A stretch of DNA of 21,354 nt. Source: a virus. The stretch spans positions 1 through 21,354 of the IMG/VR virus record IMGVR_UViG_3300048823_000126. One strand, 5' to 3'. Below, piece after piece: positions 817 to 15,622 of this stretch. The notes beneath the pieces are model-generated. The model ran no database searches and was not told the DNA's origin. It saw only the letters and a list, made by a program, of their open reading frames with translations. A program made the translations under genes and the position numbers. Numbering within the stretch: the stretch's first letter is position 1; each line of letters opens with the position of its first letter.

Positions 817-1215
817 ATGCTGTACGGAACTCTGACTCTCCCCTCCGCGCTGTACCCTGGCGATTCTTTCAGCTCGATCAACGCCGAGGCCTCCAATATC
901 TACCCTAGCGGCACTCCCGGCGAACGTGTCGCCCTGGCACAAACGCAGGACGGCAGCGAACGCGATATTTCGATGGAGCTGTGGTTCTCCGTGAATCCTG
1001 GCGTCTTTTCGATTGGCCTGCAAACCGCCGACACCGACATCAACGGCGCCTATCAGACCGAAGCCAGTGGCTCGATCACCACGGCAACGCAGACTGGCGG
1101 CGCCGGGCTCTACTATGCCCGCGTCGAGTTGCACGTCAAGGCGAAGTTCGCCCGGCCATACGTAACGACGCAGCCGGCGAACGCTTGCAGCATCACGGCT
1201 AAAATGAATGGCTAA
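817..1215 (+). CDS. Beta-rich virion-like protein
   Basis: A 132-residue protein with no Cys-rich motif or membrane segment. Its sequence alternates hydrophobic and small polar residues (Ser, Thr, Gly, Ala) and includes ELWFSVNPGVFSIGLQTAD and ARVELHVKAKF, which suggests a beta-sandwich. Such small proteins are commonly capsid decoration or fibre-tip domains. The start is ATG 817, preceded by a weak GAGGA. The 3' end overlaps the next gene by eight bases, so the two are probably co-translated. The family is not recognised; the virion role is inferred from composition and position. Confidence 0.65.
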   Translation: MLYGTLTLPSALYPGDSFSSINAEASNIYPSGTPGERVALAQTQDGSERDISMELWFSVNPGVFSIGLQTADTDINGAYQTEASGSITTATQTGGAGLYYARVELHVKAKFARPYVTTQPANACSITAKMNG

Positions 1216-1960
1216 ACTCCGCAACGCTTCTGCTTTTATCCTGCTCGCGGCCGTCGTCCTGGTCGTGGCTTTCCTTCCTTTGCTTTTCGGGCAGACTTCC
1301 AACCAAAACAACTTCGGCGGATCCGGCGGCGGCGGCGTCACGATTACGACCGTCTCCGGATTGAGTTCGATCCCCGGCAAAACCAAAGGGACGATCGCAA
1401 CCGTCACCGACGGAACGACGGCGACCGACTGCGCCACGGGCGGCGGCTCGATCGTCGTCGTCTGCCAATACAGCGGCTCAACCTGGGCCGCGGTCCCGCC
1501 CACGATCCCGTCGAAGCAATTCCTCACGACTCAATTCACGCAGACATTCTCGTCGGCCTTCAGCCCGGCAGCCATGGTCGGTTTGTCCTGGCCGATTGCC
1601 GGAAACACGAACTATGTGCTGCAGTGCGATTTCAATTACACCGCGAGCGCAAGCACGGCTGGCCTAAACTTCGCACTCACCGGGCCGGCGTTGCCTTCAT
1701 TGGTCACGGAAACGTGGGTCGGAAACGGCGCCTCCGCCGTAGCGACAGCAACCGCCGCCGCGCAACAAGCCGCCGCTTTCCCGACGCAGTTCGGGATGAT
1801 CGGCACAGGCATCGTGACCGCGGCGACCACCGACTGGGTTCACTTCACCGTCATCATTGAGAACGCGGCGACCGCTGGCACTTTGCAGGTGCAAGCGGGC
1901 GCGGAATCAACCGGAACCGTCACCGTCAACGCATACGCCGGCGGCTGCGTCCTCTACTAG
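1208..1960 (+). CDS. Secreted or membrane-anchored beta-rich fibre/decoration-like protein
   Basis: A 250-residue protein. It opens with a basic n-region (MAKLRNAS), a hydrophobic core (AFILLAAVVLVVAFLPLLFG) and then QTS, which is a Sec signal peptide or uncleaved anchor. A Gly/Ser linker (about residues 37-47) follows. Residues 48-90 form a small domain with TVTDGTTATDC, like phage proteins that sit ahead of fibre tips. The C-terminal 150 residues are Ala/Thr-rich beta sequence resembling jelly-roll tips of phage fibre or decoration proteins. It abuts the small terminase gene directly (TAG then ATG). A signal peptide on a virion-type protein is unusual; a host-derived surface protein is the alternative. 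Confidence 0.65.
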   Translation: MAKLRNASAFILLAAVVLVVAFLPLLFGQTSNQNNFGGSGGGGVTITTVSGLSSIPGKTKGTIATVTDGTTATDCATGGGSIVVVCQYSGSTWAAVPPTIPSKQFLTTQFTQTFSSAFSPAAMVGLSWPIAGNTNYVLQCDFNYTASASTAGLNFALTGPALPSLVTETWVGNGASAVATATAAAQQAAAFPTQFGMIGTGIVTAATTDWVHFTVIIENAATAGTLQVQAGAESTGTVTVNAYAGGCVLY

Positions 1961-5318: not shown

Positions 5319-7052
5319 ATGAAACGCATCACACTCGCAATTGCAACCCTGGCTCTACTGGCTGGATCCGCTTTCGGCCAGTATCTTCCCGCTTCGCCGC
5401 CCTCGGATATTTCCCGCGGGCTCGGCGTTTTCTATGCTCCGAACTACGCTTACGGTTTCGGCGCGATGGCTCCCGCTCGCGTGCAATCCGGCAACAGCGC
5501 GACCGGCTCGCAGACGATCACCTTGCAAATGGGACTCGTCACCCTTCCCGACGGCCGGACGGATATGCCCTTCAACGTCAACGCGCCGATTCTGGTCGGC
5601 AACGGCACGAACCAGGAAACGGTTACGCCGACTGCAGTCTCGGGATGCTATGAAGCCTCGATTCTGAGCGGTTCTCAAGGCATTAGCTGCAACATCACCG
5701 CATCGTTTTCGAACCTGCACGGCCAAGGTGAGATCGTACAATCTGGCACGTTTGGGTCGCAAGAAGCGATCAATGATGCGTTCTCGACCGGCGGCGGTCA
5801 GGTTGTAATCGACACCTTCTGGGCGGGCGGCTACGGCTCCGCACTTCAGGGAACGAACGCGATCCTGACCGCGGCCACCGGCTTCCCGAGCGTCGGGATT
5901 GTCGACTACCGCGGCAACGCCACGCAATACTGGAACCTGTTGCCGACGGTGACGACTTTCCTCGCCGCGCCGACGACGCTCACCTCGAGCACTGCGTTTT
6001 CAAGCGCCAGTGCGTCCTGCACTCCGAGCGGCTCCTGCTATACAGGCGGCACCATTCACGTCTGTATCGCATACGTGGACCTCGCCGGCAACGAAGGGCC
6101 ATGCTCGGCTGACTATTCCTTCACCGACACCTCAGCGAAAGCGATTCAGTTCACCGCCCCGGCAGCTTCGGCGGGAGCTGTCGGTTATGTTCTCTACGTC
6201 GGGCTCGAAAGCGGCTCAGCAAAGAACGAGTACAACATCCCACTGGTGACGCAGCCGACAGTGATTGGAGCCGCCCCGGTTTCGAACGGCGTCTGCACTC
6301 TGACCACCGTCGAAACCATTCTTCCCGCTTGCGCAGTCGCCAACACTACCTACGGTCAGACAGGTTCAGGCGCGGTTGCGATCGTATATCCGGTCGTAAC
6401 TTCACAGCAAGCGTTCCAGCTCGGCGGCGTTTCTACCACTTCCTATTACGCCCCAAACGTCGAAGCTCACACCGTTTACAGTTACGTTCCGGGTTCCCAT
6501 CCGGGACTGAATGGCGTCGTAAGCTCGAACCAACCCGCCACCATCTCGGCGGCGCTCGCCTCTACCGTTCCCTTCGTCCTCGGCTCCGTGCAGATCCCCC
6601 CTCAGTTTATGAACTACGTGGGCCGGGAAATCGAAATCTGTGGGCAGATCGTCGATGCGGCCGGCGGAGCGAACACCATCACGGCCATCCAATTCTGGTG
6701 GGATGCCGACGGCTCGAACGTGACCACCGGCATTCCGGTCTATATCGGCGGTCCGAAGATCACCACCACGCAAACCAACGTCGCCTATAACTGGAACTTC
6801 TGCCAGGACATCGAAACCACGGTGGCCTCGGCTTCGGCAACCGGCGGGTCGTTGCGCTCCACTCTTGGATGGGAAACAGCGACGGCGATCGCGGCCGGCA
6901 CTGCACCCACGGCTGGAACCAACATCGGCATTGCGGCCATCGGCTCGCTGAACCTGGCGGGACCGGCGCGCATTGACATCGTGTACGTCGAAACCACGGG
7001 CACCACCGACACGCCCCTGCTCTCGAACGTGACAGTGAAGGTCATCAACTAG
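5319..7052 (+). CDS. Secreted beta-rich virion- or surface-like protein
   Basis: A 577-residue protein with a textbook Sec signal peptide: MKRITLAIATLALLAGSAFG, then QYLP. AAGGAG lies upstream of ATG 5319. The body is Ser/Thr/Ala/Gly-rich beta sequence. Residues about 229-300 contain a fibronectin-III-like pattern (TIHVCIAYVDLAGNEG, later GYVLYVG). The last 170 residues resemble a jelly-roll tip domain (FVLGSVQIP, IQFWWDADG). Several Cys occur, which would suit disulfides in the periplasm or outside the cell. A likely terminator follows at 7063, so it may be an expression unit of its own. It could be a fibre, a phage-encoded surface protein, or captured host cargo. Precise function unknown. 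Confidence 0.7.
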   Translation: MKRITLAIATLALLAGSAFGQYLPASPPSDISRGLGVFYAPNYAYGFGAMAPARVQSGNSATGSQTITLQMGLVTLPDGRTDMPFNVNAPILVGNGTNQETVTPTAVSGCYEASILSGSQGISCNITASFSNLHGQGEIVQSGTFGSQEAINDAFSTGGGQVVIDTFWAGGYGSALQGTNAILTAATGFPSVGIVDYRGNATQYWNLLPTVTTFLAAPTTLTSSTAFSSASASCTPSGSCYTGGTIHVCIAYVDLAGNEGPCSADYSFTDTSAKAIQFTAPAASAGAVGYVLYVGLESGSAKNEYNIPLVTQPTVIGAAPVSNGVCTLTTVETILPACAVANTTYGQTGSGAVAIVYPVVTSQQAFQLGGVSTTSYYAPNVEAHTVYSYVPGSHPGLNGVVSSNQPATISAALASTVPFVLGSVQIPPQFMNYVGREIEICGQIVDAAGGANTITAIQFWWDADGSNVTTGIPVYIGGPKITTTQTNVAYNWNFCQDIETTVASASATGGSLRSTLGWETATAIAAGTAPTAGTNIGIAAIGSLNLAGPARIDIVYVETTGTTDTPLLSNVTVKVIN

Positions 7053-7512: not shown

Positions 7513-9876
7513 ATGAGTACCACTCCCATCGCCAACGCACAAGGCACTTCACTGGAAGCAACCGGCGAAACCAACGGCGAACAAGAGACTCCTGAAATCC
7601 AGGAGAACGACGGCTCGAAGTGCGCCTGTGAAGACTACGGACTCACGGATCCGGCGGAAAACGACGAACCGCTGCAGCAAGCGATTCTTGCCCTGGTGAA
7701 GCACTACGAAGGCCTCGACAAATATGCCGTCCGGACCGAGACCATCGACGCCCGAAGGCAGCGCTTCTATCGCCGCGGCGATCAGTACGTCGTTTGTTTG
7801 GAATCGAATGGCTTTATCTTCACTCCCTATGGCGGTGCGGGCGACGAGTCGAACGGCGCACCCGACGGCGATTCTTCGCGATACACCGACGTCTATAACA
7901 TTTTCTGGCCTTACATGCGCGCCCTGATCTCGATCGGCGTGCAGAATCCGCCCGGCGTTGACTTCGAGCCCGACGATCCAACCGTTTCGACCGATATTTC
8001 CGCGTCGCGCGCCGCCGAGACCTTCCGCTTCGCGATCGATCGCGTGAATAAACGGAAGAAATTGCAGGCCGACGCGATGAGCCTTTTCTGCACCGATACG
8101 CGCTGCGTGATCTACACCCGCAACGTGCGCGACGGGCAGAAATTCGGATTTGAGAACGACGGCCCAAATAAAGGCCAGCCGAAGACCGTGCAATTGATGT
8201 CGGCGCACGGCACGCTCGAAACCAAGCCGACACCGATCACCACCGACAAAATGGAAGAGTGGATCTACTTCCCGATCGACGACGAGCTCGCCCTGAATCT
8301 CGCGAAAGAGACGTACCCGAAATATGCGGCTAATATCCGCCAGGGCAACTCCGGCGCCGGCGAAAGCAGTTATCGGCGCATGGCGCGGATCGGCGTGCTC
8401 CAGGGAACGCGAGCACTAAACAATGCCGGCGACGCTTTCGCGCATCTCGTCACCCGGAAACGAGTGTGGATGCGGCCCGCGGCTTTCCGTCACGCGCCGG
8501 CCGACATCGAAAAACGACTCCGCGAACTTTACCCCTCAGGAATGAAAGTGGTGGTCGTCGGCGATGCCTACTGCGGATCCTGCGATCAGGCGATGGACGA
8601 CCATCTCTCGGTTGGCTGGCCTGGTCCTGGCGACGGCGCCTCGAAGCCTTCGATGATGCACGACTTCGTTCCTGTGCAGGACGCTTTCAACGACTACCGG
8701 AACCTAGAAAAAGAGTATGCCGACTTCGGCATCCCGACTGTTTACCAACTCAAGGAGTTGTTCGACGGCGAGGCGATGCGCGACCAAACCGCGGAGCCCG
8801 GCAACCACGTCGAAGTCGTTCTGCCTGGCGGCCTCGGAACTATTGCCGACGCTTTCTATGTCGAGCCCGCGCCTGGCTGTCCGATTCAGATCCAGCAAGC
8901 CTACGAGAACCTGATGGGCGCCCTCGGCCAGTTTATGACCGGAGCGCAACCGGCCCTGTTCGGTGGATCGGACGCCGACAACACAACCAAGGGCGGCATC
9001 GCCATGATGCGCGATCAGGCGATGGGGCAGTTTTCGATTTGCTGGGGCGGAGTACAGGAACTCTTCGCTACGGCTTACCGGCAGGGCGCTTTGTGTCGCG
9101 CCGCGGCCTCGGCGAAAGATACCGACGAAAAGATTCACGTCAAGATCCCGGCCAAGCGCGGGAAGTCGATGGTCGCGACGATCGCGGTCGCCGATCTACA
9201 AAAAGGCAACTTCCACACCTACCCGGATCTCGATTCCTCGTTCCCGGAAACAACCGGCTCGAAGCGGCAGACCGTTTCGTCGATCGTGACCCAAGCCTTG
9301 ACCAACCCGGAGGCAACCGAAGCCTATGGAGTGCTCGAACCGGAGAACCTGGAAATTCAGCGGGAACTCTTGGGCGTGCACGATTGGGTCATTCCCGGCG
9401 CCGAGTCGGGCGACAAGCAAATGATGGAGATCGAGCTGCTCTTGAAATCGCGGCCGACGCCGAACGTCGATGCGATCAAGGCCTACGCGGCCGACCAGGC
9501 GATCGAGGGCGCCGTCGCCGAGCAAGCAGAGGGCACGGGGATTCCAGTGCCAAAGACTCCGCCGCCGAATGCCATGCAGATGTATCAGTCCTCGATTCCC
9601 GTCGATCCGATGTGGGATCGCCACAACTACGAAATCGCAAAGATCGAGCAGTTCCTTTCGTCTTCCGATGGGATCGAAGAGGCGAAAAGCAACAAGTGGG
9701 GGATTTTGAACGTGAAGCTGCACGGCATGGAGCATAAGGCGGCGAAGGCCGCGCAGGCTCCGCCGCCGGGCGCGATTCCACCGATGCCGCCGAAAAAGGG
9801 CGTACACGTCGCTCCACCGATCCCGACACCAGGTCCGATGAATTCGCCCGCACCCGCAGCGCCGACGCTGCAATAG
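7513..9876 (+). CDS. Portal protein
   Basis: A 787-residue portal, the dodecameric ring at the packaging vertex that holds terminase and later the tail. Size and order fit large podovirus-type portals. Residues 1-45 are a disordered acidic leader. The region near 58-90 (ALVKHYEGLDKYAVRTETID, ARRQRFYRRGDQYV) is the usual N-terminal helix pair. DVYNIFWPYMRALISIGVQN follows, and the central DFVPVQDAFNDYRNLEKEYADF with the later LMGALGQFMTGAQPALFGG region is typical of the stem and crown. Residues about 741-787 are a Pro/Ala-rich tail. It lies upstream of the scaffold and capsid genes, as expected. A 423-residue frame inside it is a shadow. Confidence 0.85.
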   Translation: MSTTPIANAQGTSLEATGETNGEQETPEIQENDGSKCACEDYGLTDPAENDEPLQQAILALVKHYEGLDKYAVRTETIDARRQRFYRRGDQYVVCLESNGFIFTPYGGAGDESNGAPDGDSSRYTDVYNIFWPYMRALISIGVQNPPGVDFEPDDPTVSTDISASRAAETFRFAIDRVNKRKKLQADAMSLFCTDTRCVIYTRNVRDGQKFGFENDGPNKGQPKTVQLMSAHGTLETKPTPITTDKMEEWIYFPIDDELALNLAKETYPKYAANIRQGNSGAGESSYRRMARIGVLQGTRALNNAGDAFAHLVTRKRVWMRPAAFRHAPADIEKRLRELYPSGMKVVVVGDAYCGSCDQAMDDHLSVGWPGPGDGASKPSMMHDFVPVQDAFNDYRNLEKEYADFGIPTVYQLKELFDGEAMRDQTAEPGNHVEVVLPGGLGTIADAFYVEPAPGCPIQIQQAYENLMGALGQFMTGAQPALFGGSDADNTTKGGIAMMRDQAMGQFSICWGGVQELFATAYRQGALCRAAASAKDTDEKIHVKIPAKRGKSMVATIAVADLQKGNFHTYPDLDSSFPETTGSKRQTVSSIVTQALTNPEATEAYGVLEPENLEIQRELLGVHDWVIPGAESGDKQMMEIELLLKSRPTPNVDAIKAYAADQAIEGAVAEQAEGTGIPVPKTPPPNAMQMYQSSIPVDPMWDRHNYEIAKIEQFLSSSDGIEEAKSNKWGILNVKLHGMEHKAAKAAQAPPPGAIPPMPPKKGVHVAPPIPTPGPMNSPAPAAPTLQ

Positions 9877-9883
9877 GAGACTT

Positions 9884-11287
9884 ATGACACACAAATTCTT
9901 TTTCTCGATTTTCAGCTACCTGATGTTCGCAGGTACGATGTTCTTCGCGGCCGGAGCGGTTGCTGATCCGATCGCTGCAGGAGGAAACGATGCAGGAGAC
10001 CCCGGCGCAGACGATGGCGCGGCCAATGGAGATCCTGGCGCGGACGCTGGGGAAGATTCTAGTGGTAGCGATAACCAATCCGCCGATGAGCCTGGTGCTG
10101 ACAAACCGGGTATTGACGGAAAGCCGCAAGCGGACGCGCAACTCGACGGCCGCACCATGCCGCCCAAAGTCCGGGAAACCCTCGACGCCCTCAAAGCTAC
10201 CGACCCGAAAGCCCACGCCTGGATGAAGGATCGACTCTTCGAGAACCGGGAATTCAAAAAGGAACTGCCCGGCGGCCTCGCAGAGCTGAAAACCCTTAAG
10301 ACGGAAGTCGCGACCTTTAAAAAAGATTTCCCCGACGTGGCAGCCGTCAAAACGGAAATCGCAGAGTGGCGCGGGATCGACGAAGCCTGGAATAAAGCCG
10401 ATCCGAAAGTGATCGATACCTGGTTCGACATGAACCCGGAAGCGACGGCGAAACTCGTGCCCGTCGCGATGAACAAGCTCGCGAGCACGAACCCCGAACA
10501 CTATCAGCACTACATGGCGCAGGTTCTCCGCAACACGCTCGTGCAGTCGGGCGTGAAGCAGAACCTCGGATTCCTGAACCGGCTGATCTCCGCCGGAGAC
10601 AAAGACGGGGCAACCGCTCTCCTGAAAGAAGTCACCGACTGGATGGCGGCCGTTGACGACACGGCACAGAAAGCGCCAGTCGCTCCACAGAAAGACCCCA
10701 AAGTCGACGACCGCAATAAATCACTCGACGATCGCGAATCAAAGATCTGGGCGAACGAAACCGCAGGCCAGATCAACCCCTTCCGCGCGTCCCTGATCCG
10801 CAAGGAAGCGACGCAATATTTGCCCAAGGGCGCCGAACTCGACGACGAAACTTTTGAAGCGCTCGACCGTCAGATCTCGGTTTACATGGACAAGGAATTC
10901 GCCGCGGACCCTGATTTCATTAAGACGTTCGCCGCCTACTCCGAAGCGAAGGACACGGCTGGTCTCGTCGCCTACATGCGACAGAAACTCGAGACCGTGC
11001 TCCGCTCGCAACCGGGACGCAACGGCCAGCCTGCGAAGATGGGTCCGGTCGAAAGAGCAGTGAAGCTCTTTTTCCGCGGTGCAACTCCGGCGAAGAAAGC
11101 ACCAGTCGCCGGAACCGTGAAACCCGGAGCAGCCGCACAGCCGCAAAAAGGCTGGACGAAAGTCGCCGCCGGGCCGAAGCCCCACGAGATCGACCGCACC
11201 CAATCCGATTTTGGCATGATCGCCAAACAGCAGGCCATTCTCAAAGACGGCAAGAAAGTCTATTGGGGAAACCAGATTCCGACCTAG
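9884..11287 (+). CDS. Scaffold-like protein with Sec-type N-terminus
   Basis: A 467-residue protein between portal and capsid genes, the usual place of the scaffolding protein. AGGAGA and ATG 9884 support this start, so the N-terminus MTHKFFFSIFSYLMFAGTMF, ending in AGAVADP (possible cleavage after AVA), is probably translated; it looks like a Sec signal. Residues about 31-85 are an acidic low-complexity region with GDPGAD twice. From about 95 it is helical and charged (PPKVRETLDALKATDPKAHA; TEVATFKKDFPDVAAVKTEI). A basic, Pro/Ala linker near 395-430 precedes a conserved-looking end (SDFGMIAKQQAILKDGKKVY). Role is inferred from synteny and composition. The signal is unusual for a cytoplasmic assembly factor. 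Confidence 0.7.
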   Translation: MTHKFFFSIFSYLMFAGTMFFAAGAVADPIAAGGNDAGDPGADDGAANGDPGADAGEDSSGSDNQSADEPGADKPGIDGKPQADAQLDGRTMPPKVRETLDALKATDPKAHAWMKDRLFENREFKKELPGGLAELKTLKTEVATFKKDFPDVAAVKTEIAEWRGIDEAWNKADPKVIDTWFDMNPEATAKLVPVAMNKLASTNPEHYQHYMAQVLRNTLVQSGVKQNLGFLNRLISAGDKDGATALLKEVTDWMAAVDDTAQKAPVAPQKDPKVDDRNKSLDDRESKIWANETAGQINPFRASLIRKEATQYLPKGAELDDETFEALDRQISVYMDKEFAADPDFIKTFAAYSEAKDTAGLVAYMRQKLETVLRSQPGRNGQPAKMGPVERAVKLFFRGATPAKKAPVAGTVKPGAAAQPQKGWTKVAAGPKPHEIDRTQSDFGMIAKQQAILKDGKKVYWGNQIPT

Positions 11288-11438: not shown

Positions 11439-12710
11439 ATGAGCGTAGCAAGCGTCACTCAGACGTTGGCGCTCCAGCGCGAACAGGTGCGGCCGGAACT
11501 GCCCCGCCTCTTCCCGATGGACGACACCCTCTGGGCGGAAATCAAGCCGCGCGACGACATCGAAGTGGTGTCTTACCGTCCGACCCGCGTGCCTCAGTAT
11601 TTACTGAGCGGCGGCAAGCATCGGTTTGGCACCTTCGACGGCGCGGACATGGGCCAAGGCTCGTCCTTCACGACGGATTACTACACCCTCGTGCCCGTGT
11701 ATCCGTTCTCCTGCTGGCAATATTCGAAGCTGACGGAGATCACCACCAACAACGACAAAAAGGCGATCGAGAACTACGGCACCCGCACCAACAAAGAGGC
11801 GCTGGCCGAGTTCAACGTGTTCATGGAAGCGCTTTTGAACACCGACGGCTCGAACACCCTGGACTCTGTGGTTTCGGTCTCGGGGGCGCAGCTCACGGTG
11901 AACAACGCGACCATGTTCCGCGACAACAACGATTACGACCTGTGGAACGCGCTTTCCGGCAACTTCCTCGGGACCGTGACCGTGCAGTCGGTCGATAACC
12001 TCAATAACCAGCTCAACCTCACCGCCGCGCCTCCGGGAGCGACGGGTGCGGGCACGCTGATTCTCGTCAACGGTTCGGCGGGCGTCGCCGGAACGGGTTT
12101 CCTGGGGATTAAGTATTACCAGGTCAACTCGAACACCGGCAACGTCGGCGGCCTCGGCCGCCCGGCCTATCCGGGAAAACTGACGACTCCCTTTGTGAAC
12201 TTCAACTCGCAAGCCCTCACCCCGGCGAAAGCCCGGTTGATGCTGGCGCAGATGCAGATCGCGATGGGCATCGATCAGCCGGACAAAGTCGATCTGACCT
12301 GGAACATGAACGTGGACATGGTAGCGGCCTGGGAAAACGCAGGGCTCCTCGTCTCGACCGTGATCCAGAACCAGCTCAACGGCGGGAACGGCATCGACAT
12401 GCTGAAGAAATCCCCTCCGAAGACGTTGGCCGGAAGGCCGATTGTCGGCGGCGGAAAAGGTTCGATGCACGCCACACCGGGCCGGATCGACGGCCTGCCG
12501 TTGAAGCACCTGTTCCGGGTGGAGAATCAGCCGATCGACTTCTACGAAGTCGGCGGCCAGACGACCTTCTCCGCATACGGCGCTTCGGGCGGCATCGCTT
12601 CGTCCACGATTTTCTATCTCTGGTCGGGTGTGAACCTCGGAGATGAGAACGTGCATGCGGGCGTGTATGGCTCGAACATTGCAATTCCGGCGGGCTACTT
12701 CGGTCACTAA
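11439..12710 (+). CDS. Major capsid protein (HK97-type fold)
   Basis: A 423-residue protein following the scaffold gene. The N-terminal region (TLWAEIKPRDDIEVVSYRPT, then GGKHRFGTFDG) is typical of major capsid proteins of short-tailed phages. Residues about 143-212 look like an inserted beta domain (VVSVSGAQLTVNNATMF ... GTVTVQSVDNLNNQLNL ... AGTLILVNG). The core continues with ALTPAKARLMLAQMQIAMG and a C-terminal beta/alpha segment ending AIPAGYFGH. It would form the icosahedral shell with portal and scaffold. The start ATG 11439 has AAGGAAC upstream. A long hairpin after the stop could end or reduce transcription, as is common after capsid genes. Confidence 0.85.
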   Translation: MSVASVTQTLALQREQVRPELPRLFPMDDTLWAEIKPRDDIEVVSYRPTRVPQYLLSGGKHRFGTFDGADMGQGSSFTTDYYTLVPVYPFSCWQYSKLTEITTNNDKKAIENYGTRTNKEALAEFNVFMEALLNTDGSNTLDSVVSVSGAQLTVNNATMFRDNNDYDLWNALSGNFLGTVTVQSVDNLNNQLNLTAAPPGATGAGTLILVNGSAGVAGTGFLGIKYYQVNSNTGNVGGLGRPAYPGKLTTPFVNFNSQALTPAKARLMLAQMQIAMGIDQPDKVDLTWNMNVDMVAAWENAGLLVSTVIQNQLNGGNGIDMLKKSPPKTLAGRPIVGGGKGSMHATPGRIDGLPLKHLFRVENQPIDFYEVGGQTTFSAYGASGGIASSTIFYLWSGVNLGDENVHAGVYGSNIAIPAGYFGH

Positions 12711-13576: not shown

Positions 13577-14407
13577 ATGCCAGAATCCATCACTGCCACA
13601 CGCGGCGACTCACGCACCGAAGAACTGGTCGCGCGCAACGAAAAAGAACTTCAGTTCATCCCGGAAGAGTCGATCGAGTTTGCCCAGCGCAACCTGATCC
13701 ACGTCTTCAACGTCTCGCCTTACGAGAAGATCATCGAACATCCCTCGTTTGGGCGCCTGCTCATTCCCGCCTGCGAAAAAGGCAAAGAATACTCGGAGCC
13801 CTTGATCGTCGAAGGCCTCGTCTTCACCGGCGTCTGCGTCGAGATGAAGACGGTTGAGATGCGGCACGAGTCGGGGCGTGTCTGTGTGATCGACCTGCTC
13901 GGACTCGGCCCGTTCAAGAATAAAGCGAATTGCCTTTTGAATTGGGGCATCTTCATCGCTGCCGAAGACACTTTCGATCCGGCGAAAAACGCCGAGGTCC
14001 GGGTCGCGACCGGCCGCAACGGGAAAGCCATCAAAATGCACCTGCCCGACTGGGTTAAGAAAGGCAAGCTCGGCGTAAAGCCGACGCGGAAGGAAATCGC
14101 GACCGCAAACGCACTCTTCGAGCAGACCGATATGGCGCTGATCGCGGAGGGTGACGACTTCGCCGCGCAAGGGCAAGAAGGTCAAAAGAACATCTCGAAA
14201 ATGCACCGCGAGGCGTTGCTCCGCCGCGGACAAACGCGCGGCTGGAGTGATCCGGTTAAGGGGATGACGTTGATTGCCTGCCCCGGATGCCAGGAGAACA
14301 TCAAGCCCGGAGTGGTGGTTCACACCTGCGGTTCGGTGCTCGATTGGGACAAGGCGATCGCACTCGGGATCAAGAAGGCGGAAGACCGGCCGAAGAATAA
14401 AGCCTAG
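13577..14407 (+). CDS. Hypothetical protein with C-terminal zinc-ribbon-like end
   Basis: A 276-residue protein. The first part is mixed alpha/beta (FNVSPYEKIIEHPSFGRLLI). A Lys-rich linker with WVKKGKLGVKPTRKEI precedes a helical segment. The end holds CPGCQENIKPGVVVHTCGSV, with C-x2-C and H-x-C giving four metal ligands, like a small zinc ribbon. The start is fixed by AGGAGG. Its stop overlaps by three bases the stop of the convergent - strand microprotein. Role unknown. Neighbouring capsid and connector genes suggest a head-associated function, and DNA or RNA binding is possible from the ribbon. Confidence 0.7.
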   Translation: MPESITATRGDSRTEELVARNEKELQFIPEESIEFAQRNLIHVFNVSPYEKIIEHPSFGRLLIPACEKGKEYSEPLIVEGLVFTGVCVEMKTVEMRHESGRVCVIDLLGLGPFKNKANCLLNWGIFIAAEDTFDPAKNAEVRVATGRNGKAIKMHLPDWVKKGKLGVKPTRKEIATANALFEQTDMALIAEGDDFAAQGQEGQKNISKMHREALLRRGQTRGWSDPVKGMTLIACPGCQENIKPGVVVHTCGSVLDWDKAIALGIKKAEDRPKNKA

Positions 14408-14505
14408 CCGTCAGGAAAGCCGCGGCGGAACTCTTCCGGTGTCGGCACCGAAATGATTGGAATTTTGCGGCGCAGATTGTAAAAAGCGGCCCCGGGATCG
14501 TACAT
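14404..14505 (-). CDS. 33-residue microprotein
   Basis: Read on the - strand from ATG 14505 to TAG (14404-14406): MYDPGAAFYNLRRKI, then PIISVPTPEEF, then RRGFPDG. It has the strongest signal for a small gene in the window: AAGGAG (14519-14514 on the - strand) overlaps the stop of the Tat protein gene and lies eight bases before the ATG. This is a typical terminate-restart layout, so the two form one transcription unit. No family is recognised. Its short length is the main reason for caution. Confidence 0.55.
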   Translation of the reverse strand: MYDPGAAFYNLRRKIPIISVPTPEEFRRGFPDG

Positions 14506-14513
14506 CTGGAGCG

Positions 14514-14519
14514 CTCCTT
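14514..14519 (-). promoter_or_regulatory. Ribosome binding site for the microprotein
   Basis: AAGGAG on the - strand overlaps the TAA of the Tat-signal gene (14518-14520) and ends eight bases before ATG 14505. Confidence 0.6.
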
Positions 14520-14838
14520 ACTCCACGCGATCGAAGTGGATCGAGCGGCCTTCGATTTTAGTGATCCTCAAGACCTCGACCGCGAGAGAACCATCGGCGT
14601 CATAGATCGACACGAGTTGACCGACCTCCAACTTTTCATTGCCGGAGACGGCAAACAGTCGACCGGGCACACGCATCGGCCGGTTCGAGCCGATCGACGA
14701 TGCTCCGAAGAGATCAAGGCCCTGGTTATAAGTTTTGATCTCTTTCGGAAAACTGAACACACGGAACGGAAAGGTTCTGACAGCCGCAGCAGCCGCCACA
14801 CCTCCGACCATCATGCCTAAGAATTTCCGCCGATCCAT
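14518..14838 (-). CDS. Tat-signal protein encoded against the structural operon
   Basis: A 106-residue protein from ATG 14838; a TTG at 14844 adds two residues and has AGG at better spacing. It begins MDRRKFLGMMVGGVAAAAAV, a twin-arginine signal (RRKFLG plus a hydrophobic core). The mature part contains GRLFAVSGNEKLEVGQLVSI and AVEVLRITKIEGRSIHFDRV, a beta-rich, SH3/KOW-like small domain. Tat proteins are exported folded. No clear AxA cleavage site is visible, so it may stay anchored. It lies alone on the - strand among head genes; only 19 bases separate its start from the divergent gene at 14858, so its promoter must lie inside that gene. Function unknown; a moron-type cargo or a capsid-related protein are options. 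Confidence 0.8.
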   Translation of the reverse strand: MDRRKFLGMMVGGVAAAAAVRTFPFRVFSFPKEIKTYNQGLDLFGASSIGSNRPMRVPGRLFAVSGNEKLEVGQLVSIYDADGSLAVEVLRITKIEGRSIHFDRVE

Positions 14839-14857
14839 GAGCAAGATTTTAACCTAG

Positions 14858-15622
14858 ATGCCCCTCGGGACCACACCTTACGATTCCGCCGATTACGTGC
14901 TGAACATCGCGCGCTCGCTCGGCAACGATGCGATCCAGACGCTCGCGGGCAGCCTGCTTGCCGACTCGCAGTCTTACGTCACCGTCTTTCTCAATTCCGG
15001 CTATCGCGCATTACAAAGACGGCTCGCGAACGCCGGGTATGCGACTTTCAAAAAGACGGTGCAGATTATCGGCGTGCCGGTGATCGGACAGCTCGATCCC
15101 GGAATGCAGCTTGAGATCAGCTACACCGGCACATATGACGGCGTCGAGAATCACGCGACTCCGGTCCTCCCGGCCGATTTCAACTGGCCACTGAAACTCT
15201 GGGAACGGCAGACGCTCACAACTCAAATCTGGCAGCCGATGTCTTTAGCCAGGAACGGATTGATCTCACGTCCGCAATCGATCTGGCTGCACAGTTGGCT
15301 TTACGAACAGGAGCAATTAGTTTTCCGCGGCGCAACCCAGGTCAACGATCTGCAACTGCGCTACGTTCCGTTCCTTCCCGAACTTGTGCTCACGCCTGAA
15401 CCGAGCCAGGTGCCGCTTCTGCGATGCGAGAACGCGCTCGCGGCTTACGTTCTCTATGCCTACGCCCTAGCCCGCGGCTCCGCTCTGCTCGCGGAGATCA
15501 AGAGCATGGCCGACAACTTCGTCAACGAGATGCTGCGCTCAGACGCGATGACAAAAACACACGGCAACCTTCGCCGCAAAGGTTATTCACACGGCCTGCA
15601 TCGCGGTTTTGGGCGCATGTAA
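14858..15622 (+). CDS. Probable head-tail adaptor protein
   Basis: A 254-residue protein downstream of the capsid gene and upstream of the nozzle-like gene. The pattern SYVTVFLNSGYRALQRRLAN followed by KKTVQIIGVPVIGQLDPGMQ, an aromatic middle (WPLKLWERQT, SIWLHSWLY, LQLRYVPFLP) and a helical C-terminus (ALAAYVLYAYALARGS, then SMADNFVNEML) resembles gp4/gp11-like adaptor proteins of short-tailed phages, which sit under the portal. Start ATG 14858 has no Shine-Dalgarno. The call is by pattern and position; a head completion or other connector protein is possible. Confidence 0.6.
   Translation: MPLGTTPYDSADYVLNIARSLGNDAIQTLAGSLLADSQSYVTVFLNSGYRALQRRLANAGYATFKKTVQIIGVPVIGQLDPGMQLEISYTGTYDGVENHATPVLPADFNWPLKLWERQTLTTQIWQPMSLARNGLISRPQSIWLHSWLYEQEQLVFRGATQVNDLQLRYVPFLPELVLTPEPSQVPLLRCENALAAYVLYAYALARGSALLAEIKSMADNFVNEMLRSDAMTKTHGNLRRKGYSHGLHRGFGRM

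Follow-up and report, generated by a model that had tools for sequence, protein, structure and literature searches.

A virus record of 21,354 bases, hereafter the window (i.e., the whole stretch of DNA analysed), carries between two plus-strand genes of its head module a minus-strand gene for a protein of 106 residues (14518-14838), and it is well supported that this gene belongs to a sporadically distributed family of accessory genes in uncultured tailed phages. The proteins of this family are bipartite, with a near-invariant leader of twin-arginine translocation (Tat) type on the one hand, and a hypervariable C-terminal part, the tail, on the other hand. That many of these tails consist of short segments resembling the major capsid protein (MCP) of the very phage encoding them is well supported by sequence comparison. 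While the architecture of the family is likewise well supported, its mechanism is a matter of what we infer from it, namely that the protein may serve as a capsid decoy.

The Tat-leader gene of the window and its surroundings

As delimited by relatives sharing the same leader, the gene starts with the ATG at 14838 and terminates with the stop codon at 14518-14520; this ATG is a better start than the upstream TTG at 14844, with 34 of the 38 members beginning 20 codons before RT[FW]PFR. The protein reads MDRRKFLGMMVGGVAAAAAVRTFPFRVFSFP followed by 75 residues. Its leader (residues 1-31; 14746-14838, minus strand) comprises the twin-arginine motif, a short hydrophobic helix rich in Gly and Ala, and the stretch RTFPFRVFSFP, and its tail (residues 32-106; 14521-14745, minus strand) corresponds to the region where the members are largely unrelated to one another. 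A minus-strand gene of Tat type, starting 19 bases from the divergent plus-strand gene at 14858, had been proposed in the initial annotation and proved real, the leader being present in 38 virus records (including IMGVR_UViG_3300048809_000061, the near-identical twin of the window with 99.995% identity over 19.9 kb) and its codons being under purifying selection. Respective to the Tat signal, the claim stands on the twin-arginine motif and on the Pfam and NCBIfam matches of the family, but the window's own member is matched by neither model. In the AlphaFold model, a helix covers residues 3-22 and the tail is of low confidence and mostly without structure; instead of the small beta domain suggested earlier, only a low-confidence hairpin is predicted (residues 76-89). 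Searches in Pfam, PHROGs, NCBIfam and the phage collection gave no match for the window protein, and a single-sequence scan of IMG/VR retrieved just one near-identical record. The description as an unusual, export-type phage gene without standard explanation was borne out.

It had further been argued that the gene must be transcribed from inside its divergent neighbour. This is not required, since a -10-like hexamer, TAAAAT (14846-14851, minus strand), is located 7 nt before the ATG, which would place the mRNA start approximately at the ATG, and of the promoter only a -35 element would overlap the neighbour, in its first codons. Because of this box, the mRNA is probably leaderless. A sigma-70 scan of the window recovered no full promoter, and a terminator scan recovered no terminator. 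A 33-codon ORF (14404-14505, minus strand) had been called a microprotein forming a two-gene unit with the Tat-leader gene, a proposal now rejected and an ORF not supported as a gene: apart from the window copies, no relative was found in the seven loci compared, and no MCP likeness was found either. The chance estimates nonetheless leave some room, an ORF of this length occurring in 0.9% of shuffles of that stretch, and in 0.06% together with a Shine-Dalgarno sequence, a combination picked post hoc.

On one side, the gene is faced by the 3' end of a head-module gene of cluster c4 (13577-14407, plus strand). On the other side stands the divergent gene of cluster c7 (14858-15622, plus strand), adaptor-like by position only, for the product of which no family match was found. 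In L005, whose MCP is 86% identical to that of the window, these c4 and c7 genes overlap directly with nothing in between, and the 450-base interval of the window is therefore an insertion relative to L005.

The MCP of the window, i.e., the type of protein imitated by the family, is encoded at 11439-12710 (plus strand). Its structural model is of low confidence (pLDDT 53) but matches phage capsids, all 17 of the 17 PDB chains at E<=0.001 being phage-type capsids (TM-scores of 0.21-0.35), and its PHROG match to a major head protein is weak (E 0.12). No match was found in the phage collection for two window-type MCPs, the nearest cultured relative of the phrog_283-type MCP is 47% identical, and the sole relative of one MCP subtype among 84,980 genomes is carried by a 45 kb contig that was binned, perhaps wrongly, into a Patescibacteria MAG. 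The MCP gene is preceded by a gene scaffold-like by position (9884-11287, plus strand), whose product bears a hydrophobic N-terminal segment, MFAGTMFFAAGAVAD. The scaffold-like protein has such a segment in the window as well as in L004, L005, L077, L085 and L113, and lacks it in L006, L007, L081-L083, L087, L096 and L106. Of note, the starts of two further plus-strand genes of the window (1208-1960 and 5319-7052) resemble by eye Sec signal peptides, which is unusual for a structural region.

Conservation, distribution and turnover of the leader family

The family was searched in IMG/VR with a degenerate DNA pattern for RT[FW]PFRV[FY]SFP, which retrieved 39 stretches in 38 records, the twin of the window counted, all 39 in frame with a Tat-type leader (the twin arginines of L025 are cut off by the contig end, and the leader of L008 is shorter). 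As such, the leader pattern M[DNE]RRxFLxxxxGGxAxxAAVRT[FW]PFRV[FY]SFP recurs in 38 IMG/VR records, and a relaxed pattern added 11 loci. A single match to the pattern is present in 35 of the 38 records, with two in G021, three in G033 and a second, weak one in G038. Across 34 aligned members (alignment A1), 13 leader positions are invariant, of which R3, R4, F6 and G13 were left free by the search pattern; the invariance of the second half of the leader is partly by construction, since the first search fixed most of that half. Among members from the relaxed search, T22 is replaced in some by S, E, Q or A, and V27 in some by T, A or M, and SFP is retained in 10 of 12 proteins. For 33 distinct leaders, pN/pS is 0.246 over codons 2-31 and 0.32 over codons 2-20, the part untouched by the search pattern. 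Judged from these ratios, the leader is under purifying selection.

The leader exhibits the Tat consensus, i.e., a twin-arginine motif (R3, R4, F6) followed by a moderately hydrophobic N-terminal helix. The Pfam model TAT_signal matched 21 of the 34 members at a permissive E of up to 10 (best E 0.00063) and the NCBIfam model TAT_signal_seq 12 of the 34, also at E of up to 10, with the window's member absent from both sets; besides these Tat-signal models, scanning the 34 members against the two libraries gave one weak capsid match per library and a few other weak matches. Ordinary Tat signals are conserved mainly in their twin-arginine motif and in hydrophobicity. In the present family, by contrast, the stretch R.[FW]PFR..SFP following the helix is nearly as conserved as the twin arginines, and this holds as well among members from the relaxed search, which did not fix all of that stretch.

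In its strict form, the leader pattern is absent from 84,980 prokaryote genomes. No convincing relative was found in 50,697 phage records, where the consensus leader only gave a 19-residue match at E 10, and no cultured member of the family was found in the phage collection. Several individual records are worth mentioning. L109, from record G033, harbours integrase genes and a LuxR-type regulator together with a member of the family and two leaders of the same style devoid of RT[FW]PFRV. The same Tat-led protein is encoded in L120 and L122, i.e., in records of 152 kb and 70 kb, respectively. In L097, tandem copies (7569-7877 and 8315-8689) have an identical leader and upstream sequence, and the first of them seemingly continues into a duplicated piece of adjacent DNA.

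That the gene would always be antisense beside capsid genes, a pattern envisaged in the initial annotation, was rejected. The gene occurs at varied sites and in both orientations, frequently among the packaging and head genes, close to the terminase gene, the MCP gene, or genes designated by position as portal, scaffold or adaptor; 16 of the 35 non-redundant copies oppose the main genes and the other 19 run with them. A TANNNT hexamer at a distance of 4-10 nt upstream of the ATG was seen in 9 of the 16 antisense copies versus 2 of the 19 sense copies (Fisher p 0.009), the expectation from shuffled sequences being 0.072. It is present in all eight non-redundant antisense copies having a divergent neighbour that starts less than 110 bases away, the window's copy included. 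This suggests that antisense copies produce a leaderless mRNA, with transcription starting at the ATG.

The presence of the gene varies even between close relatives. For one MCP subtype, the leader occurs in 7 of 38 loci with related MCPs, and among relatives of the window's MCP in 2 of 13 loci (the near-identical record and L169), bearing in mind that a missing leader is not proof of absence, as many of these loci are fragments. The loci L150, L151, L152 and L158 align at 93-95% nucleotide identity. L151 and L152 have the gene in common; in L158, the flanks are nearly the same as in L151 and L152 and the leader is identical to that of L152, but the tail is unrelated from about codon 32; in L150, the gene is missing and the start of the next gene is altered. 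As such, presence or absence of the gene as a unit is observed between close relatives (L150 versus L151, L152 and L158; L005 lacking the window's copy), and the hypervariability of the C-termini extends to tails being swapped between phages 93-95% identical, while the MCPs of L151 and L158 agree at 433 of 444 residues. A comparison of L151 with L152 gives five replacement changes, one silent change and two in-frame indels in the tail, and two replacement changes and one silent change in the leader, numbers too small to compare rates. The last residues shared by L012, L013 and L027 were rejected as a protein-level likeness, since the coding sequence there overlaps the first part of the following gene (portal by position).

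Resemblance of the tails to the capsid protein of the same phage

The 36 unique tails were compared with 239 cluster profiles made from the fetched regions. Of the resulting matches, the best 13 (E up to 0.006, uncorrected for the number of profiles) all fell to the window-type MCP cluster, k67 or k66; the next one (E 0.0095) involved an unrelated profile. Cluster k67 corresponds to the major head protein in PHROGs (phrog_283, E 1.5e-61) and k66 to a DNA ejection protein. With a profile built from 47 window-type MCPs, 13 of the 47 tails scored above 5 bits, each with the lowest p that 200 shuffles allow.

The 47 tails were further ranked within their own genome, each against every ORF of at least 60 residues in the available sequence and with 40 shuffles per tail; an MCP was identified for 26 of them and not for the other 21. 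In 16 of these 26, the phage's own MCP outscored every other ORF, versus 1.1% for shuffles, the count being 14 of 23 once L015, L035 and L043 are set aside, the MCPs of which were recognised as such only through their appearance as matches, and L012 and L013 being close relatives and thus not independent. Among these 16 tails, 10 reached E<0.01, i.e., L046 (1.6e-9), L015 (3.2e-8), L016 (9.5e-8), L022 (5.9e-6), L032 (6e-6), L012 (4.7e-5), L035 (1.2e-4), L117 twice (5e-4 and 4.5e-3) and L013 (1.9e-3), and the remaining six were weak, between 0.015 and 0.44, i.e., L008 (0.015), L125 (0.019), L014 (0.058), L009 (0.16), L038 (0.27) and L018 (0.44). In the other 10 of the 26, the MCP ranked second in L043 and L045 as well as in L020, there behind the phage's own ejection protein, 4th in L027, 10th in L029, 16th of 191 ORFs in the window, 17th in L119, 31st in L028 and 93rd in L044, and was not ranked at all in L023. 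The imitated MCPs belong to several families, namely the window type, phrog_283, phrog_9953 (L015) and, less surely, phrog_371, the MCP of L035 matching the latter at 7e-6 and having a head maturation protease as best PHROG match (4e-6).

Respective to the window, the whole C-terminus gave p 0.006 and 0.016 against the broad and narrow MCP profiles, respectively, and its first 40 residues 0.0025 and 0.003; over six tests (two profiles; whole tail and halves), p ranged from 0.0025 to 0.046. A single block is recognisable, namely SNRPMRVPGRLFAVSG (14641-14688, minus strand), which aligns with MCP positions 45-60 (SYRPTRVPQYLLSGG in the window's MCP) when profile scores are compared with shuffles; this likeness is weak and suggestive only. 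A capsid connection of the family is supported, in a way that had not been foreseen, and in the window only weakly so.

With reference to the window-type MCP profile, the imitated parts include the N-terminal arm (L022, 3-77; L032, 7-50; L117, 50-80), the region 235-316 (L016, L021, L014, L018, L045, L117) and the region 346-390 (L012, L119). Where two or three profile blocks are present in a tail, their order is reversed relative to the MCP, i.e., from C- to N-terminus: MCP positions 347-366, 290-312 then 43-59 in L115; 346-362 then 288-313 in L012 and L013; 377-390 then 7-50 in L032; 364-385 then 188-212 in L119. The firmest of these reversed blocks are those of L012 (6.9 and 9.0 bits), with several others at only -1.3 to 4 bits. 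A capsid fold extending over a domain or a whole protein was not found, the likeness being confined to segments of about 15-75 residues, some of them rearranged. Of note, two overlapping Tat-led genes of L160 (9167-9529 and 9507-9854) imitate different parts of the same MCP (50-80 and 272-316, respectively).

For the seven matched blocks with an identified MCP, the idea that the MCP gene was recently duplicated as DNA was discarded: only 44-64% of their nucleotides are common with the phage's own MCP gene, and since the blocks are alike in protein and not in DNA, they do not result from recent copying. In a separate case, the L019 tail (901-1236, minus strand) matches, with E 8.8e-11, a fragment with which its own record begins, L179 (3-338, minus strand), and in one block 84% of the nucleotides agree; no PHROG name was obtained for this L179 fragment, and the block may be a recent copy of whatever L179:3-338 is.

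Small MCP-like proteins devoid of the leader were also encountered, mostly covering MCP positions 360-396, in L081 (6402-6689), L127, L143 (4236-4451), L149 (2181-2396), L168 (1897-2259) and L170 (4766-5131), and with weaker likeness in L085 (14892-15206) and L113 (15204-15518). As a control, 109 other small ORFs were compared with the MCP profile: nine reached p<=0.01 and six exceeded 5 bits, all six with an MCP-like stretch; upon retesting, those of L081, L082, L096 and L087 were confirmed at E<=0.01 and those of L085 and L113 were not. This control is not clean, because some phages carry such leaderless proteins. Self-mimicry is thereby broader than the Tat-led family, and it does not need export.

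Possible roles and relation to known systems

Because a separate, sporadic and fast-changing gene joins a Tat-type leader to pieces resembling the MCP of the same phage, the best reading is a membrane-targeted capsid decoy, whose tail would bind proteins recognising the MCP and whose leader would move the complex away; as drawn from sequence, it is a tentative one. The imitated segments would bind those cell proteins recognising newly made MCP, i.e., capsid-sensing immune proteins or satellite proteins hijacking capsids. The Tat leader would then bring the bound complex to the inner membrane, or out of the cytoplasm via piggyback export, and the real MCP could accumulate without triggering the sensor. 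The tail would change fast because sensors, and the segments that they recognise, change as well. What we infer here is export through Tat, binding to a sensor and a benefit to the phage.

The MCP is reported to trigger directly CapRel-SJ46 (PMC9712102) as well as staphylococcal Thoeris (PMC11312562), so that in these systems, as would be the case here, the MCP is recognised by other proteins in the infected cell. As these two systems are described, though, the trigger is the MCP itself, in the cytoplasm, whereas pieces of the MCP are here re-encoded separately behind a Tat-type leader. Tat is also reported to export partners without any signal of their own (PMC4273604); with Tat substrates, such as the hitchhiker-exporting PaoABC, the leader has in common the RRxFL motif and the Gly/Ala-rich helix, and the hitchhiker mechanism described would let a signal-less bound partner be exported (PMC4273604).

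Against the decoy, the MCP is not the leading match for 10 of the 26 tails, among them that of the window, the match is weak for 6 of the 16 where it leads, and some MCP-like proteins are leaderless, e.g., that of L081 (6402-6689). Moreover, Tat normally wants folded cargo, whereas the tail of the window is modelled, with low confidence, mostly without structure, and we know of no precedent for the removal of a sensor to the periplasm. A more elaborate form of the proposal, where the family would provide dedicated and rapidly re-tailored capsid decoys, exported or bound to the membrane, in counter-defence against sensors or hijackers of the phage's own MCP, with the leaderless MCP-like proteins encoded by some of these genomes as their cytoplasmic partners, is rather doubtful.

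Alternatively, the leader could anchor the protein as a membrane tether for capsid assembly, with the MCP-like segments docking onto the scaffold or the procapsid and the heads assembling at the membrane. In favour of this are the many copies lying among packaging and head genes; also, the scaffold-like protein preceding the MCP has, in the window and in the five loci listed above, a hydrophobic N-terminus that may itself place head assembly at the membrane, and the N-terminal arm, through which HK97-fold capsids make assembly contacts, is among the parts mimicked. Such a tether nevertheless appears unlikely for a gene found in only 7 of the 38 loci with related MCPs (many of them fragments) and absent from a 93%-identical phage; its tail is exchanged between phages with almost the same MCP (433 of 444 residues agreeing), and its copies are antisense in 16 of 35 cases, nine of these with their own -10 box.

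The protein could also be directed at other phages, either through capsid-like peptides poisoning the assembly of co-infecting relatives or through superinfection exclusion by the exported protein. The gene is small, mostly single-copy, sporadic, fast-changing and often endowed with its own -10 box, which would suit such a weapon; satellites are described as using capsid homologues in this way, e.g., Ccm of SaPIbov5 (PMC8569155), and the prophage protein Tab as blocking virion assembly (PMC10884400). This reading is improbable, though, as a protein whose best match is the phage's own MCP would poison the phage itself, and lasting protection of a lysogen looks unlikely since the strict leader pattern is not found in 84,980 genomes. 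Like the present family, Ccm is a capsid-like protein encoded by a separate gene and interacting with the capsid system; it is described, however, as a satellite-encoded homologue of the helper capsid protein that fills pentameric capsomers (PMC8569155), whereas the tails reported here are short, partly rearranged segments in the phage's own gene.

Another improbable reading is functionless recombination debris, i.e., a mobile leader with its promoter landing in structural modules and reading into chance or decayed fragments of capsid genes. Insertion and loss are indeed frequent, MCP-like fragments without leader exist, one tandem copy of L097 appears to read into duplicated neighbouring DNA, and between L151 and L152 the leader changed as well (two replacement changes, one silent). 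Against decay stand a leader pN/pS of 0.32 over codons free of the search pattern, tail indels that are in-frame, and a likeness to the phage's own MCP residing in protein, not in DNA, across several MCP families. Finally, an exported periplasmic protein modifying the envelope or blocking a receptor would agree with the Tat-type leader, the accessory distribution and the 10 of 26 tails, the window's included, for which the MCP is not the best match, but is very improbable, as a merely incidental MCP likeness is untenable for the family as a whole (16 of 26 versus 1.1% of shuffles).

In its sporadic occurrence, its antisense -10 box and its presence or absence in close relatives, the family resembles phage morons, i.e., accessory genes that carry a promoter of their own. 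The usual descriptions of morons come from prophages, whereas 84,980 prokaryote genomes gave no match to the strict leader pattern, with record G033 nonetheless carrying integrase genes. Searches of an open-access library on Tat and phages, and on capsid mimics or decoys, listed no description of such a family. Set apart from the capsid triggers and from Ccm by the descriptions of these, the family appears categorically new in its architecture.

Should the capsid decoy prove true, recognition of the capsid would be under selection strong enough to sustain a separate gene imitating the phage's own capsid, and the combination of a decoy with Tat targeting would constitute a new route of counter-defence. 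Even without this mechanism, self-mimicking tails across several capsid families could be used as probe or bait for capsid-sensing proteins.
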